NCBI GenBank assembly: GCA_000990585.1 | Contig: LBQD01000004.1 | Location: forward strand, 1,470-41,706 | DNA length: 40,237 nucleotides | Source of the DNA: Candidatus Moranbacteria bacterium GW2011_GWE2_35_2- | GTDB lineage: Bacteria; Patescibacteriota; Minisyncoccia; Moranbacterales; UBA9337 | Reading direction: 5' to 3' | Part shown: in pieces, positions 431 to 6,077 of the stretch | How the letters are laid out: each line of letters begins with the position of its first letter | Numbering within the stretch: position 1 is the stretch's first letter | Made by a program: the position numbers and the translations under genes | The notes under the pieces: generated by a model | What the model was told of the DNA's origin: nothing | Databases searched by the model: none | What the model saw: only the letters and a program-made list of their open reading frames with translations

Positions 431-985
431 ATGGAAGAAGAAAGAAAATATATAGCTGGTAAATTTGCTGATCCGATGGAAACAATCAATGAAATAGATG
501 TGAAAAAAGGAGATGTTATGGCGGATTTTGGTTGCGGAGCAGGTTTTTTTTCATTGCCCTTTGCCAAAAAAGTTGGAGAAGAAGGAAAAGTTTATGCTTT
601 GGATGTGTTGTCTTCAGCGCTTGAGGCGGTAGAAAGTGAGGCAAAAGCAAACGGAATTTCTAATATCATTACCAAAAGAGTGAATTTAGAATTAGAAAAA
701 GGATCGAAGCTGGATGATGAAAGCGTGGACTGGGTTGTGATGAAAAATATTCTTTTTCAAAACAAAGATAAAGATATTATTATAAGAGAGGCTTATCGCA
801 TTTTGAAGAAAAATGGAAGAGCATTGATTATGGAATGGGATAGCGGGAATTCTTTTATCGGTCCCGACCGAAAACTTCGAATTTCTGAGGAAGAATTGGA
901 TGCAATGGTGGAAAAAGGCGGATTCATTTTGGAAAAAAAAATAAAAGCGGGAGATTTTCATTATATGTTGATTGCTGTTAAATAA
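431..985 (+). CDS. class I SAM-dependent methyltransferase
   Basis: VMADFGCGAGFFSLPFA motif I, YALDVLSSALE; start trimmed from ORF 344 to MEEERKYIAGKF. Confidence 0.8.
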   Translation: MEEERKYIAGKFADPMETINEIDVKKGDVMADFGCGAGFFSLPFAKKVGEEGKVYALDVLSSALEAVESEAKANGISNIITKRVNLELEKGSKLDDESVDWVVMKNILFQNKDKDIIIREAYRILKKNGRALIMEWDSGNSFIGPDRKLRISEEELDAMVEKGGFILEKKIKAGDFHYMLIAVK

Positions 986-989
986 AAAA

Positions 990-2399
990 ATGAAAACAAA
1001 AATAAAAAAAATAATTTCAATATTTATTTTGATAAGCAGTGTTTTTTTGTTTTCCGGATGCGGAAATAATAATAATTCTCCAAAGTATCAGGTGGATTTG
1101 GAAATATGGGGTCTTTTTGACGATAGTTCAATTTTTGGTGAAATAATAAGTGATTATGAAAAAGTCAATCCTTTGGTGGGAAAAATAACCTATCGAAAAA
1201 TGACACAAGATAATTATAAAAAAGAACTTATAAACGCGATGGCGGAGGGAAACGGTCCGGATATTTTTTTGATGAATAACGCTGATCTTTATTTTTTCAA
1301 AAATAAAATCGAGTCGGCTCCGGAAAACATTTTTTCTTTGAGTGAATTTTCTTCCAATTTTGTTGATGTGGCGAAGGATGACTTTGTTGCGGATGGAAGA
1401 ATATACGGAGCACCACTAAGTGTCGATTCAATGCAGCTTTTCTATAATAAAGATATTTTTAACTTCAATGGAATATCACTGCCACCTGAAACTTGGAATG
1501 ATTTTGCGGATGTTTCCAGAAAACTTACAAAAATAGACAGTAAAGGAGAGATCATACAAGCGGGAACGGCAATGGGAACCGCCTATAACGTTAACCGCGC
1601 TTCGGATATTTTAGGATTGTTGATGCTTCAAAATAAAGTGAAACTTCCAACTGTTCAAGATTCGCAAATAAACTTAAATATGATAAATGTTGCGGAAAAT
1701 GGAAGAGAAAACAGTGCCCGTAGCGCTTTTGGATTTTATACGCAATTTGCTTCGATAAGCTCTCCTTTTTATACGTGGAACAGGGATATGCATTATTCTA
1801 TTGATGCTTTTGCTGAGGGAAGGGCTGCGATGATGTTTAATTATTCGTGGAATATAGATACTATAAAAAGCAAAAATTCAAAATTGAATTTTGCGGTGTC
1901 TCAAATTCCACAATATGAAAATTCGCTTCCGGTAGGGTATGCTAATTATTGGGGATTTGCGGTAAATAAGAATAAGCAGATAAAAATTTCTCCGACTGGA
2001 GGCGGAAAAGATATGGTAGTTAATAATGATATGCGAGTCCATGAGTCTTGGCAATTTATTAAGTTTTTGACGACAAAAAATAACGGATCTTTTAATGTGG
2101 TTCATGCTACTTCGGGAGAAATTAAATCTTTTCCAACCAGCATTGATCCGGCGAAAATATATTTAGAGAAAACCAATAAGCCGGCTGCCAGACGCGACTT
2201 GATTGATGTTCAGCAGGCTAATCCTACAATAAAACCTTTTGTATTAGGAAATTTGATTGCCAAAAGTTGGTATCAACCAGACACTGAAAGTGTTGATGCA
2301 ATATTATTAGACGCGATAGATTCAATCAATAAAGGCGATTCCAATATCGATCAAGCATTGAAGTTGGCAAACACTCGAATTGAACAATTAAAAAAATAA
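990..2399 (+). CDS. ABC-type (sugar-like) extracellular solute-binding lipoprotein
   Basis: Lipobox signal MKTKIKKIISIFILISSVFLFSGCGNN; YGAPLSVDSMQLFYNKDIF, PETWNDFADVSRKLT typical of family 1 SBPs. Confidence 0.85.
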   Translation: MKTKIKKIISIFILISSVFLFSGCGNNNNSPKYQVDLEIWGLFDDSSIFGEIISDYEKVNPLVGKITYRKMTQDNYKKELINAMAEGNGPDIFLMNNADLYFFKNKIESAPENIFSLSEFSSNFVDVAKDDFVADGRIYGAPLSVDSMQLFYNKDIFNFNGISLPPETWNDFADVSRKLTKIDSKGEIIQAGTAMGTAYNVNRASDILGLLMLQNKVKLPTVQDSQINLNMINVAENGRENSARSAFGFYTQFASISSPFYTWNRDMHYSIDAFAEGRAAMMFNYSWNIDTIKSKNSKLNFAVSQIPQYENSLPVGYANYWGFAVNKNKQIKISPTGGGKDMVVNNDMRVHESWQFIKFLTTKNNGSFNVVHATSGEIKSFPTSIDPAKIYLEKTNKPAARRDLIDVQQANPTIKPFVLGNLIAKSWYQPDTESVDAILLDAIDSINKGDSNIDQALKLANTRIEQLKK

Positions 2400-2404
2400 A
2401 CCCA

Positions 2405-3475
2405 ATGAAAAAAAACAGACTAATTAATTTTCTTCTTTTGTTGCCCGTTTTATTTTCTCCTTTGGCAACAAAAGCGGCTCTTGTTCCTTGTGGAACGAGT
2501 GAGCATCCGGAAGTGTGCACATTGTGTCATTTTATTGTGGGAATAAAAAATATCATTGATTGGGGAATGGGAATTTTGACTTTTGTGGCAATTGGCGCGA
2601 TTGTTTTGGGCGGAATTTTTTATATTATCTCTGCCGGAAATCAAGAAATGATGAAAAAAGCCAAAACCATTATTATTCAAACATTAACCGGATTTGCGAT
2701 TGTTTTGGGAGCGTGGTTGATTGTTACGTATTCGATGTATATTATAGGATCTTCCAATAGAGACGGGGTTATGCGTACTGATGGCGCATGGTATGAATTT
2801 ACCTGTGATACCGTTTCTAACCAAGCGGCTATCGATATTGGAAGTATTTCTACTTCTACAACTACTTCTCCAACATCTTCTACGGTAGCATCAGCGGCGG
2901 TGGATTCTAGTGGAGATTGTCTTAATGCGGCAATGCCAGGAGCGCAAACTTGTACCGGATATTCTTGTATTTCAACTTGCGGAAGTATTTCTAGTTATGT
3001 GTCTGCGATTTCTTCCGCATCTTCCTCCTATAATGTAAGTGAAAATCTTATTCGAGGAGTTATCTGTCGAGAATCATCTGGAAATACAAACGCAATAAAA
3101 AATGAATCCGACGGAACAATGTCGTGTGGCTTAATGCAGGTTAATGTAGATACACAGGCTGAATGTGAGTATTTAACAGAACATCCGGCGGAAAATATTA
3201 TGCAAGGGACGGCAAGTTTGAGTGCAAGGATTGCACAAGCGCAAAAAACCATGGATTCGCATGGATATAATACAGTGGAAGTGGAGGAGATGGCAGCAGC
3301 AGCATATAATTGTTGCGCCAATGGAGAAGATCCGAATTCTCCGAGTAATGATTGCACGGCGGCAAATGATTGGGGATTGGTTCCAAAGTGGGCGTGTCCT
3401 ATTGATCCGGGAACGAGTGAGTTCAATATGTGCGCGGTCAAGGATTATGCTTGCAGTGTCGGATCATGTGAATAA
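2405..3475 (+). CDS. VirB2/TrbC-like pilin domain fused to Cys-rich lytic transglycosylase-like domain
   Basis: Signal peptide, two TM helices with YIISAGNQEMMKKAK, Ser/Thr linker, then VICRESSGNTNAIKN...SCGLMQVNVDTQ resembling the SLT/VirB1 catalytic motif. Confidence 0.75.
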   Translation: MKKNRLINFLLLLPVLFSPLATKAALVPCGTSEHPEVCTLCHFIVGIKNIIDWGMGILTFVAIGAIVLGGIFYIISAGNQEMMKKAKTIIIQTLTGFAIVLGAWLIVTYSMYIIGSSNRDGVMRTDGAWYEFTCDTVSNQAAIDIGSISTSTTTSPTSSTVASAAVDSSGDCLNAAMPGAQTCTGYSCISTCGSISSYVSAISSASSSYNVSENLIRGVICRESSGNTNAIKNESDGTMSCGLMQVNVDTQAECEYLTEHPAENIMQGTASLSARIAQAQKTMDSHGYNTVEVEEMAAAAYNCCANGEDPNSPSNDCTAANDWGLVPKWACPIDPGTSEFNMCAVKDYACSVGSCE

Positions 3476-3495: not shown

Positions 3496-3783
3496 ATGTT
3501 TGAAATTGGAAATAAAATTATTCATACGGCACAGGCGGGAGTGATTTCGGATGCGCCGGGGCTGGCACAGATCGGAGGAAATATTCTGAATTTTTTATTG
3601 TCTATTGTTGGAATTTTTGTTATAATCAGCTTAGTAATTTCCGGAGTAATGTATTTGACATCGGCAGGAAATGAAACTCAAATTGAGAAAGCAAAAAAAA
3701 CAGCATTTTATTCTGTAGTGGGGATTATTACGGCGCTGGGTGCGATGCTGATTGTGAGACAAATTGGAATTTTTTTCAAATAA
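3496..3783 (+). CDS. small T4SS pilin-like (VirB2/TrbC-like) membrane protein
   Basis: Two hydrophobic segments around YLTSAGNETQIEKAKKTAFYSVVGIITALGA. Confidence 0.75.
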   Translation: MFEIGNKIIHTAQAGVISDAPGLAQIGGNILNFLLSIVGIFVIISLVISGVMYLTSAGNETQIEKAKKTAFYSVVGIITALGAMLIVRQIGIFFK

Positions 3784-3837: not shown

Positions 3838-4200
3838 ATGAAAAATGCAATTAAGAAAGCGGTTTATGGAGCGGCTTCATCGGCTCTTTTGCTTCCGGTA
3901 ATGGCTTTGGCTCAATTTGACCCGCCATCCGGAGCGGCTACCGGTCTGCCTGAGTCGACAATATATGGTATTGTTGAAAATATTATGTATTGGCTTCTCG
4001 GATTGGTTGGTATTGCTGGAGTTATCGGATTTGCGATTTCCGGTATTATGTACCTTACTTCAGCCGGAGATGATGATAGAATGGGAACAGCCAAGAAGGC
4101 TATGATATATTCGATTATTGGTGTGATTGTGGCATTGGTTGGTTTGATCGCCCTTACAGCTATTCGAAGTATGTTGGGAGGAAGCAACACCCAATTTTAG
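3838..4200 (+). CDS. small T4SS pilin-like protein with signal peptide
   Basis: SD GGAGGTGA; signal peptide; IMYLTSAGDDDRMGTAKKAMIYSIIGVIVALVGL. Confidence 0.8.
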   Translation: MKNAIKKAVYGAASSALLLPVMALAQFDPPSGAATGLPESTIYGIVENIMYWLLGLVGIAGVIGFAISGIMYLTSAGDDDRMGTAKKAMIYSIIGVIVALVGLIALTAIRSMLGGSNTQF

Positions 4201-4317: not shown

Positions 4318-4683
4318 ATGAAAAGTAAAATCAAAAAAATTGTGTTGGGAGTTGTAGTTTCTTTTTCGGCATCGCCTTTGATTGCATTGGCGCAATGGAA
4401 TGCGGGATTGGCTAACGCTCAACAATCCGGTCTTCCGTGGGATAACATAGCAAGTATTATCGGAAATATAATGTTTTGGATACTTAGCTTAGTTGGGGTA
4501 GTTGCGATTATCGGATTTGCGATTTCAGGACTTATGTATTTGACTTCTGCCGGGGATGACGATCAGATCAAAAAAGCCAAAAATGCTATGAAAAATTCCA
4601 TTATTGGTGTTATCGTTGCCTTGGTAGGTTTAGTGGTAATTTATGCGGTTAATAATATGTTGGGCGGAATGTCTGATTTTTAA
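4318..4683 (+). CDS. small T4SS pilin-like protein with signal peptide
   Basis: LMYLTSAGDDDQIKKAKNAMKNSIIGVIVALVGLVVI. Confidence 0.8.
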   Translation: MKSKIKKIVLGVVVSFSASPLIALAQWNAGLANAQQSGLPWDNIASIIGNIMFWILSLVGVVAIIGFAISGLMYLTSAGDDDQIKKAKNAMKNSIIGVIVALVGLVVIYAVNNMLGGMSDF

Positions 4684-4684
4684 T

Positions 4685-5092
4685 ATGAAAACAAAAATAA
4701 TTATAAATTCGATTGTTTCCTTGATGATGGTTTTTGTGTTTTTGAATGTGCAGGCCGCTCCGAATTGCAGTGCCACTCCCGGATTTGTTCTTGATCCTTC
4801 CGGAGTTTGCGTGCCGAGTGCCACCGGATTACCTGATCCGGTCGGAAACGATCCTGTGGCAACTATTTTGATTAATGTGATGCAATGGCTTTTGGGAAGC
4901 TTTGGAGTCGTAGCGATAATCGCTTTTGCTATTTCTGGATTGCAATATATGCTGGCGGCGGGAAATGACAACGTTATGGAAAAGGCCAAGCGGAATATGC
5001 TCTATTCGATTATCGGAGTGGCGGTAGGTTTGGCGGGACTTTTGATTGTTATAGCTATCAATAATATGCTTGCGGGGGGATCAACTTTTTAA
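4685..5092 (+). CDS. small T4SS pilin-like protein with Cys-containing N-terminus
   Basis: LQYMLAAGNDNVMEKAKRNMLYSIIGVAVGLAGLLIVIAINNML; start trimmed to 4685. Confidence 0.8.
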   Translation: MKTKIIINSIVSLMMVFVFLNVQAAPNCSATPGFVLDPSGVCVPSATGLPDPVGNDPVATILINVMQWLLGSFGVVAIIAFAISGLQYMLAAGNDNVMEKAKRNMLYSIIGVAVGLAGLLIVIAINNMLAGGSTF

Positions 5093-5102
5093 TTACAAAA
5101 AA

Positions 5103-6077
5103 ATGAAAAGTAATAAAATATTTTTCGGTTTAAGAGAGAAGATAATAATTTTTTCTTTTTTAATGTTGGGTTTGGTGAATTTCGGGGTTTCAAGCGTGCT
5201 GGCAACAACTGTGCAATGCAGTTCTGCTAGTGGAGTTTGTTCGGTACAAGGAGGAAGTGGATGCCCTCTTGGATCAACGGTTATTTCGGGTATTATATGT
5301 GACGAAGGAGAGGCGTGCTGTACAGCTCCTCCGCAGCTGGTTTGTTGTCAAATTAGCACAGATACTTGCGCGGAAAATACTTCCGGACTATGTCCAGGAA
5401 GTATTATTCCAATTCCCGGTTCTTGCTCGGAAGTTTCAACTTGTCCACAGTATACGTCGCCTGATGTTTCTGATCCGACTGGTTCTGATCCTGGATCGAC
5501 CGATGTTTCTGATCCGACAACTCCCACATCTTCTGCAGGTTGCGCAGATGGATCGATTTGTTTTACTTCTCCTTTGGCATTTACAACGGTTGAGGGCGTG
5601 CTGGGCAGTATTTTGAGTACTTTGCAAGGAATTATCGTTTTGATTTCAATCGTTTTTATTGTGATTGGAGCAGTGATGTATATTATATCCTCCGGCAATG
5701 ATGATATGATAAAAAAAGCGAAAAACGCGATTACAGCGGCAATGATCGGGCTGGCGATTGGAATCGCGGCACCATCGTTTCTCAAAGAAATTGCGACAAT
5801 TTTAGGATGGGGAGATGATGATATTAATAATCCTGAGGTTAGCGGCGCTCTCACTTTGGCGCAAATCGCAACCAACGCTTTGGATTTTCTTCTTGCGATT
5901 GTCGGTGTTTTGGGAATTATTATGCTGGTAATCGGAGGATCGATGTATTTGACTTCAGCGGGTGATGAAAAGAAAATCGATACTGCTAAATCAATCACTA
6001 AGTGGGCGATTATCGGAATTGCAGTAGCCTTGGCGGCATTGGTAATCGTGCGCCAGATCTCCAGATTCTTTGTGTAA
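5103..6077 (+). CDS. Cys-rich protein with two tandem pilin-like domains
   Basis: MYIISSGNDDMIKKAKNAITAAMIGLAIGIA and MYLTSAGDEKKIDTAKSITKWAIIGIAVALAA; Cys-rich N-term and DVSDPT...STDVSDPT linker repeat. Confidence 0.75.
   Translation: MKSNKIFFGLREKIIIFSFLMLGLVNFGVSSVLATTVQCSSASGVCSVQGGSGCPLGSTVISGIICDEGEACCTAPPQLVCCQISTDTCAENTSGLCPGSIIPIPGSCSEVSTCPQYTSPDVSDPTGSDPGSTDVSDPTTPTSSAGCADGSICFTSPLAFTTVEGVLGSILSTLQGIIVLISIVFIVIGAVMYIISSGNDDMIKKAKNAITAAMIGLAIGIAAPSFLKEIATILGWGDDDINNPEVSGALTLAQIATNALDFLLAIVGVLGIIMLVIGGSMYLTSAGDEKKIDTAKSITKWAIIGIAVALAALVIVRQISRFFV

Follow-up and report, generated by a model that had tools for sequence, protein, structure and literature searches.

A gene of a Moranbacterial genome encodes, by its sequence, a T4SS pilin and a Cys-rich lytic transglycosylase (SLT) domain in one chain, with the catalytic motifs of the enzyme intact; it leads an array of pilin genes, its architecture is conserved, and in relatives the enzyme behind the pilin is exchanged for other payloads. 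We favor, at somewhat better than even confidence, the prediction that its product serves as a minor pilin and supplies VirB1-like activity in cis. The gene lies in a stretch of 40,237 nucleotides, here called the window, from a bacterium that is tiny and probably host-dependent.

The fusion is a single intact open frame of 356 codons with an ATG start on the + strand (Table 1). A Pfam-A scan placed a pilin domain (PF18895, 29.0 bits against a cut-off of 26.6) at residues 47–109 and an SLT domain (PF01464, 41.8 bits against a cut-off of 21.3, E = 9e-11) at residues 202–305, in agreement with an earlier note on this DNA that had claimed pilin-like residues at ~50–115 and a lytic transglycosylase-like C-terminus at ~190–356. 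The catalytic motifs of this C-terminus are intact and run in the order CRESSG...CGLMQ...AYN, and 15 of the 18 cysteines of the protein lie beyond the second hydrophobic helix; the note had seen many cysteines around the transglycosylase-like region. The C-terminus itself is acidic and Cys-rich. Hydropathy is maximal at residues ~57–75 and 89–116, with the loop NQEMMKKAK between, and by the positive-inside rule the C-terminus is predicted to lie outside the cytoplasmic membrane.

Table 1. Fusion gene, its parts and the neighboring genes, in window positions.
Feature	Position	Strand	Basis or remark
Extracellular solute-binding lipoprotein (PF13416/PF01547)	972–2399	+	5 bp upstream of the fusion
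Fusion gene: Sec signal, T4SS pilin domain, Ser/Thr linker, Cys-rich SLT (lytic transglycosylase) domain	2405–3475	+	356 aa
Signal peptide-like N-terminus MKKNRLINFLLLLPVLFSPLATKAA	2405–2479	+	Predicted from hydropathy and sequence
Exported Cys motif VPCG...CTLC of the pilin mount (Cys29, Cys38, Cys41)	2486–2527	+	Conserved in related pilins; alignment
T4SS pilin domain PF18895, residues 47–109; two hydrophobic helices flanking a K-rich loop	2543–2731	+	Pfam, hydropathy
Ser/Thr-rich linker	2807–2917	+	Sequence; model of low confidence at residues 115–187
SLT lytic transglycosylase domain PF01464, residues 202–305	3008–3319	+	Pfam, Foldseek, PDB profile matches
Predicted catalytic Glu223 (CRESSG)	3071–3073	+	Invariant in alignments; aligns with the ES motif of MltC/MltE
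GLMQ motif, residues 242–245	3128–3139	+	Relatives' alignment, PDB profile alignment
AYN motif, residues 300–302	3302–3310	+	Relatives' alignment, PDB profile alignment
Cys-rich tail KWACPIDPG..NMC..YAC	3353–3469	+	Conserved with the SLT domain in Moranbacteria and Nomurabacteria
Unfused T4SS pilin	3496–3783	+	Pfam
Unfused T4SS pilin	3838–4200	+	Pfam
Unfused T4SS pilin	4318–4683	+	Pfam
Unfused T4SS pilin	4688–5092	+	Pfam, scanned from an upstream ATG at 4643
Double T4SS pilin, tandem PF18895 x2, Cys-rich N-terminal part	5103–6077	+	Pfam

Several comparisons bear on the fold of the C-terminal domain. The AlphaFold model, computed from six sequences, was of modest quality (mean pLDDT 56.6, the SLT part mostly 70–85), and the top Foldseek matches of the C-terminal part of this modest-confidence model were MltE and goose-type lysozymes, at a probability of 1.00 with E-values of 6e-3 or worse. 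A single SLT domain compared with PDB sequences by phmmer had no significant match (best E 0.25); a profile of five fused SLT domains matched MltC (1.8e-11) and MltE (7e-10), and also Slt70 and goose lysozyme. The earlier note had named a C-terminus without a lysozyme-like fold as grounds for giving up its reading; the region resembled lysozyme-like proteins in both structure and profile comparison, and the prediction of this fold stands. By these comparisons the fusion shares the fold and the catalytic Glu with MltE, MltC and goose-type lysozyme, whereas those enzymes lack a pilin half and do not resemble it in the cysteines and the C-terminal tail.

The extra Cys-rich segments around the fold, which are unusual for VirB1, could be read differently: the SLT domain might be catalytically dead and bind murein, holding the pilin assembly to the wall. 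We consider this very improbable, given that none of the three, catalytic Glu, GLMQ or AYN, has been lost; across six fused relatives Glu223, Gln245 and Tyr301-Asn302 are invariant, and over an alignment of 27 fused proteins the catalytic E and Q are invariant or nearly so.

The same architecture recurs well beyond the window. A search of 131 genomes of the order with the SLT domain of the window matched six genomes, that of the window included, and all six matches were pilin–SLT frames. For the class, 238 genomes were sampled irrespective of the fusion and searched with PF01464, which gave 89 places, and an in-house pilin profile matched ahead of the SLT domain in 21 of these 89 SLT frames, again counting the window's own; a search with a fused-domain profile added six fused frames from a phylum sample. 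When these 27 proteins were scanned independently with Pfam, the SLT domain was recognized in all of them and PF18895 in 22. The named relatives belong to the Moranbacteria/Moraniibacteriota and the Nomurabacteria. When named genomes were scanned with a single protein no relatives were found, and an alignment of five fused SLT domains used as the query recovered eleven loci; searches of plasmids and of viral contigs yielded no relatives. Two genes joined by a sequencing or assembly error, an explanation that the earlier note had itself offered as its possible undoing, are rejected by the presence of the joined frame in many independent assemblies; we found no point in favor of such an error and assign it a negligible probability.

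When the fused label was mapped onto a tree of 110 SLT domains, it required 4 changes, against about 26 after shuffling, and a single part of the tree held 28 of the 29 fused rows, figures to be read with its 120 columns, its weak deep support and the gathering of some rows with a profile built from fused members. Nomurabacterial rows were scored as fused via a diverged two-helix N-terminus, which hhalign matched to pilins at 94%, and two rows truncated by contig ends (L051 and L054) were labeled by likeness. Since the fused domains cluster in this way, the pilin–SLT architecture looks old.

Within the window, the fusion is the first gene of a pilin array that continues with five further pilin genes. 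Double pilins similar to the last of these also occur at loci L031, L057 and L061. The solute-binding gene ahead of the fusion likewise precedes the pilin half, hereafter the mount, in many relatives; with gene names assigned by eye, L057 and L061 share the order apparent methyltransferase, solute-binding gene, fusion and pilin array, a translation-factor-like gene being interposed in L061. No ABC permease (PF00528) was found in this genome, whereas 14 of 14 control genomes were positive, and the solute-binding protein therefore looks like an orphan, of glycan type and tied to the pilin operon. No SLT other than the fused one was found in the genome (923 kb), which also encodes two M23 peptidases. 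VKOR, which might supply disulfides to a protein so rich in cysteine, was searched for and not found.

The link to a T4SS comes from relatives. In this genome the virB4-like gene lies on contig C2 and the fusion array on C4, and the two are thus unlinked; at L052, a pair of fusions follows virB4 some 4.5 kb further downstream, and at L053, L056 and L059 (Nomurabacteria and a related MAG) virB4 has, at a distance of 1–4 kb, SLT proteins whose two-helix N-terminus is the diverged one. Genes of 941 and 389 aa are adjacent at the virB4 locus of this genome, and genes of 1017 and 386 aa, which appear to correspond to them by size, order and sequence start, flank the two fusions at L052. A recent survey found pilin genes near virB4 in 1135 of 1948 assemblies, an arrangement that is common but not required (PMC12102498). 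The earlier description of a VirB2–VirB1-type fusion was fair as to the domains, in that the fusion is real and conserved and its motifs are intact; its link to the T4SS is shown in relatives only. VirB4 itself is apparently encoded by two adjacent genes (about 223–234 aa and 603–617 aa) in this genome (L047:10152–11960 and L047:11964–12665) and at L052, L053 and L056. A split shared by this genome and three relatives looks conserved rather than a frameshift; a Pfam scan of the short VirB4 gene gave no match.

The unlinked virB4 also fits another account, in which the protein is a murein hydrolase of the ordinary kind, held in the membrane by a borrowed two-helix pilin and with no role in a T4SS or pilus. 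Two hydrophobic helices could anchor any domain, and the Nomurabacterial N-termini have diverged beyond Pfam recognition as pilins. One helix suffices for anchoring, however, and by the same measure a single hydrophobic segment is seen in most of the class's SLT frames that are not fused; moreover, the mount keeps its Cys motif and fronts a pilin array, and relatives are linked to virB4. We regard such borrowing as unlikely.

What varies among relatives is chiefly what stands behind the pilin. The N-terminal half (VPCG...CTLCH, two helices and W.EF.CDT) is kept in most of them and the C-terminus is variable: among 33 distinct mounts the tails include SLT, M15-like and NlpC/P60 domains, Cys-rich modules and other long stretches, and about a dozen mounts have almost no tail. 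The payload at L023 is NlpC/P60 (PF00877 above cut-off). The second recurrent payload is called M15-like only, on the strength of its invariant H, D and H residues (H..D..H), one Pfam M15_3 match at E 0.02 and weak Foldseek matches: its model is confident (pLDDT 86), and the top PDB matches were non-significant ones to hedgehog domains (best E 0.34, probability 0.54). Hedgehog domains are related to M15 peptidases. Repeated Cys-rich modules (e.g. GEYCG..G.C....CP.G..C....CC) stand behind the same mount at L010, L011, L014, L020, L026 and L029; the one such protein scanned matched no known family.

Neighboring genes can carry near-identical mounts with different payloads. The mounts of an SLT and an M15-like protein are 92.9% identical in DNA over 397 bp at L052 and 89.3% identical over 456 bp at L060; at L027 (1384–3432, G005) the identity is 100% over 421 bp, between an M15-like protein and a second one in which SLT and pilin are both above the Pfam cut-off, an identity that could come from a recent duplication, from gene conversion or from the assembly itself. 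At L053 mounts 99.3% identical over 294 bp precede an SLT domain and a payload that is NlpC/P60- or CHAP-like by eye and without a match in a Pfam scan. Mounts that are 89–100% identical in front of different payloads suggest duplication of the mount, or gene conversion, with exchange of payloads, and a shared partner of the mount; such identity is what a shared partner would lead one to expect, and it counts against a merely borrowed anchor.

These data suggest that the pilin half is a general mount, reusable for wall cutters at a secretion or pilus site. The fixed pilin–hydrolase pair implied by the earlier note accordingly needs amending: the fusion is conserved, but SLT is one of several interchangeable payloads and many relatives carry none. 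In its broadest form, this would make the pilin a general patescibacterial mount for interchangeable wall cutters (SLT, M15-like, NlpC/P60), exchanged by recombination, with the mounts of neighbors kept alike and an orphan glycan-binding lipoprotein paired to it, a proposal that we hold only tentatively. If it is true, a modular complex, either a filament or its base, would both cut walls and sample them, and these might be the walls of a host.

Varied payloads on near-identical mounts could also serve as a weapon or feeding tool displayed on a pilus or the cell surface. Hydrolases would face outward and let the epibiont open a bacterial host's wall, and the orphan lipoprotein would bind host or released glycans. 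The solute-binding gene beside the mount in many relatives and the absence of a PF00528 permease here agree with such a tool, and according to a review it has been proposed that lytic transglycosylases of Patescibacteria compromise the envelopes of their hosts (PMC11665869). Outward display cannot be separated from action on the cell's own wall by sequence, however, and this organism has no known host. Methanogenic archaea are not known to have murein. One cultivated Patescibacterium is a parasite of a methanogenic archaeon (PMC12281837), which also speaks against this reading. We rate it as possible but doubtful; it is the chief rival of the explanation that we prefer.

A minor pilin with VirB1-like activity is our preferred explanation, and it can be set beside known systems. 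Patescibacterial VirB2-like pilins and their arrays share with the fusion the pilin family (PF18895), the array organization (2–11 genes) and the bacterial group; in the survey the pilins are described as separate genes, whereas here the transglycosylase lies inside a pilin gene (PMC12102498). With VirB1 of the T4SS (MPF-T) it has in common an SLT domain with ES...GLMQ...AYN, export and, probably, local opening of the wall; VirB1 is described as soluble and secreted (PMC12857230), whereas the fused SLT domain would be tethered behind two predicted membrane helices. The two-domain VirB1 of monoderm T4SSs, SLT plus CHAP, pairs glycan cutting with peptide cutting (PMC12102498), as some patescibacterial loci appear to do, but as one protein rather than as two pilin-mounted neighbors (SLT with M15-like or NlpC-like). 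A search of the open literature turned up no paper describing a pilin–transglycosylase fusion.

We propose the following sequence of events. The product would be exported and inserted into the membrane as a VirB2-like minor pilin, its signal peptide being cut, with two helices in the membrane, the K-rich loop on its inner side and the C-terminus on the outer one. The fusion subunit would then join an assembly of the neighboring unfused pilins, and its transglycosylase would open murein locally where this assembly crosses the wall, so that VirB1 function would be supplied in cis and not by a separate soluble enzyme. The target is more likely to be the cell's own wall, with a host wall as the main alternative. 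Against this explanation, virB4 in this genome does not lie beside the array, and the two M23 peptidases could also open the wall. About a dozen of the 33 mounts being almost payload-free, the hydrolase is not essential for the pilin system across the order; together with the M23 peptidases here, these mounts make the SLT domain an option and not a universal need.

The fusion bears on how these pili are thought to work. The 2025 survey found patescibacterial VirB1 homologs to be scattered and inferred that VirB1 is dispensable for the VirB2-like pilus, since it is missing from most genomes that have VirB2 (PMC12102498). For part of the group the fusions offer a direct answer, namely that a wall cutter can hide inside a pilin gene. 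Near-identical mounts with different payloads also amount to a natural experiment, in which the functions of payloads may be compared on one scaffold. T4SS and pilin genes are reported to be essential when the one species tested grows as an epibiont (PMC12102498), and how the apparatus crosses a wall, and whose wall it is, therefore bears on the life of these bacteria on their hosts.
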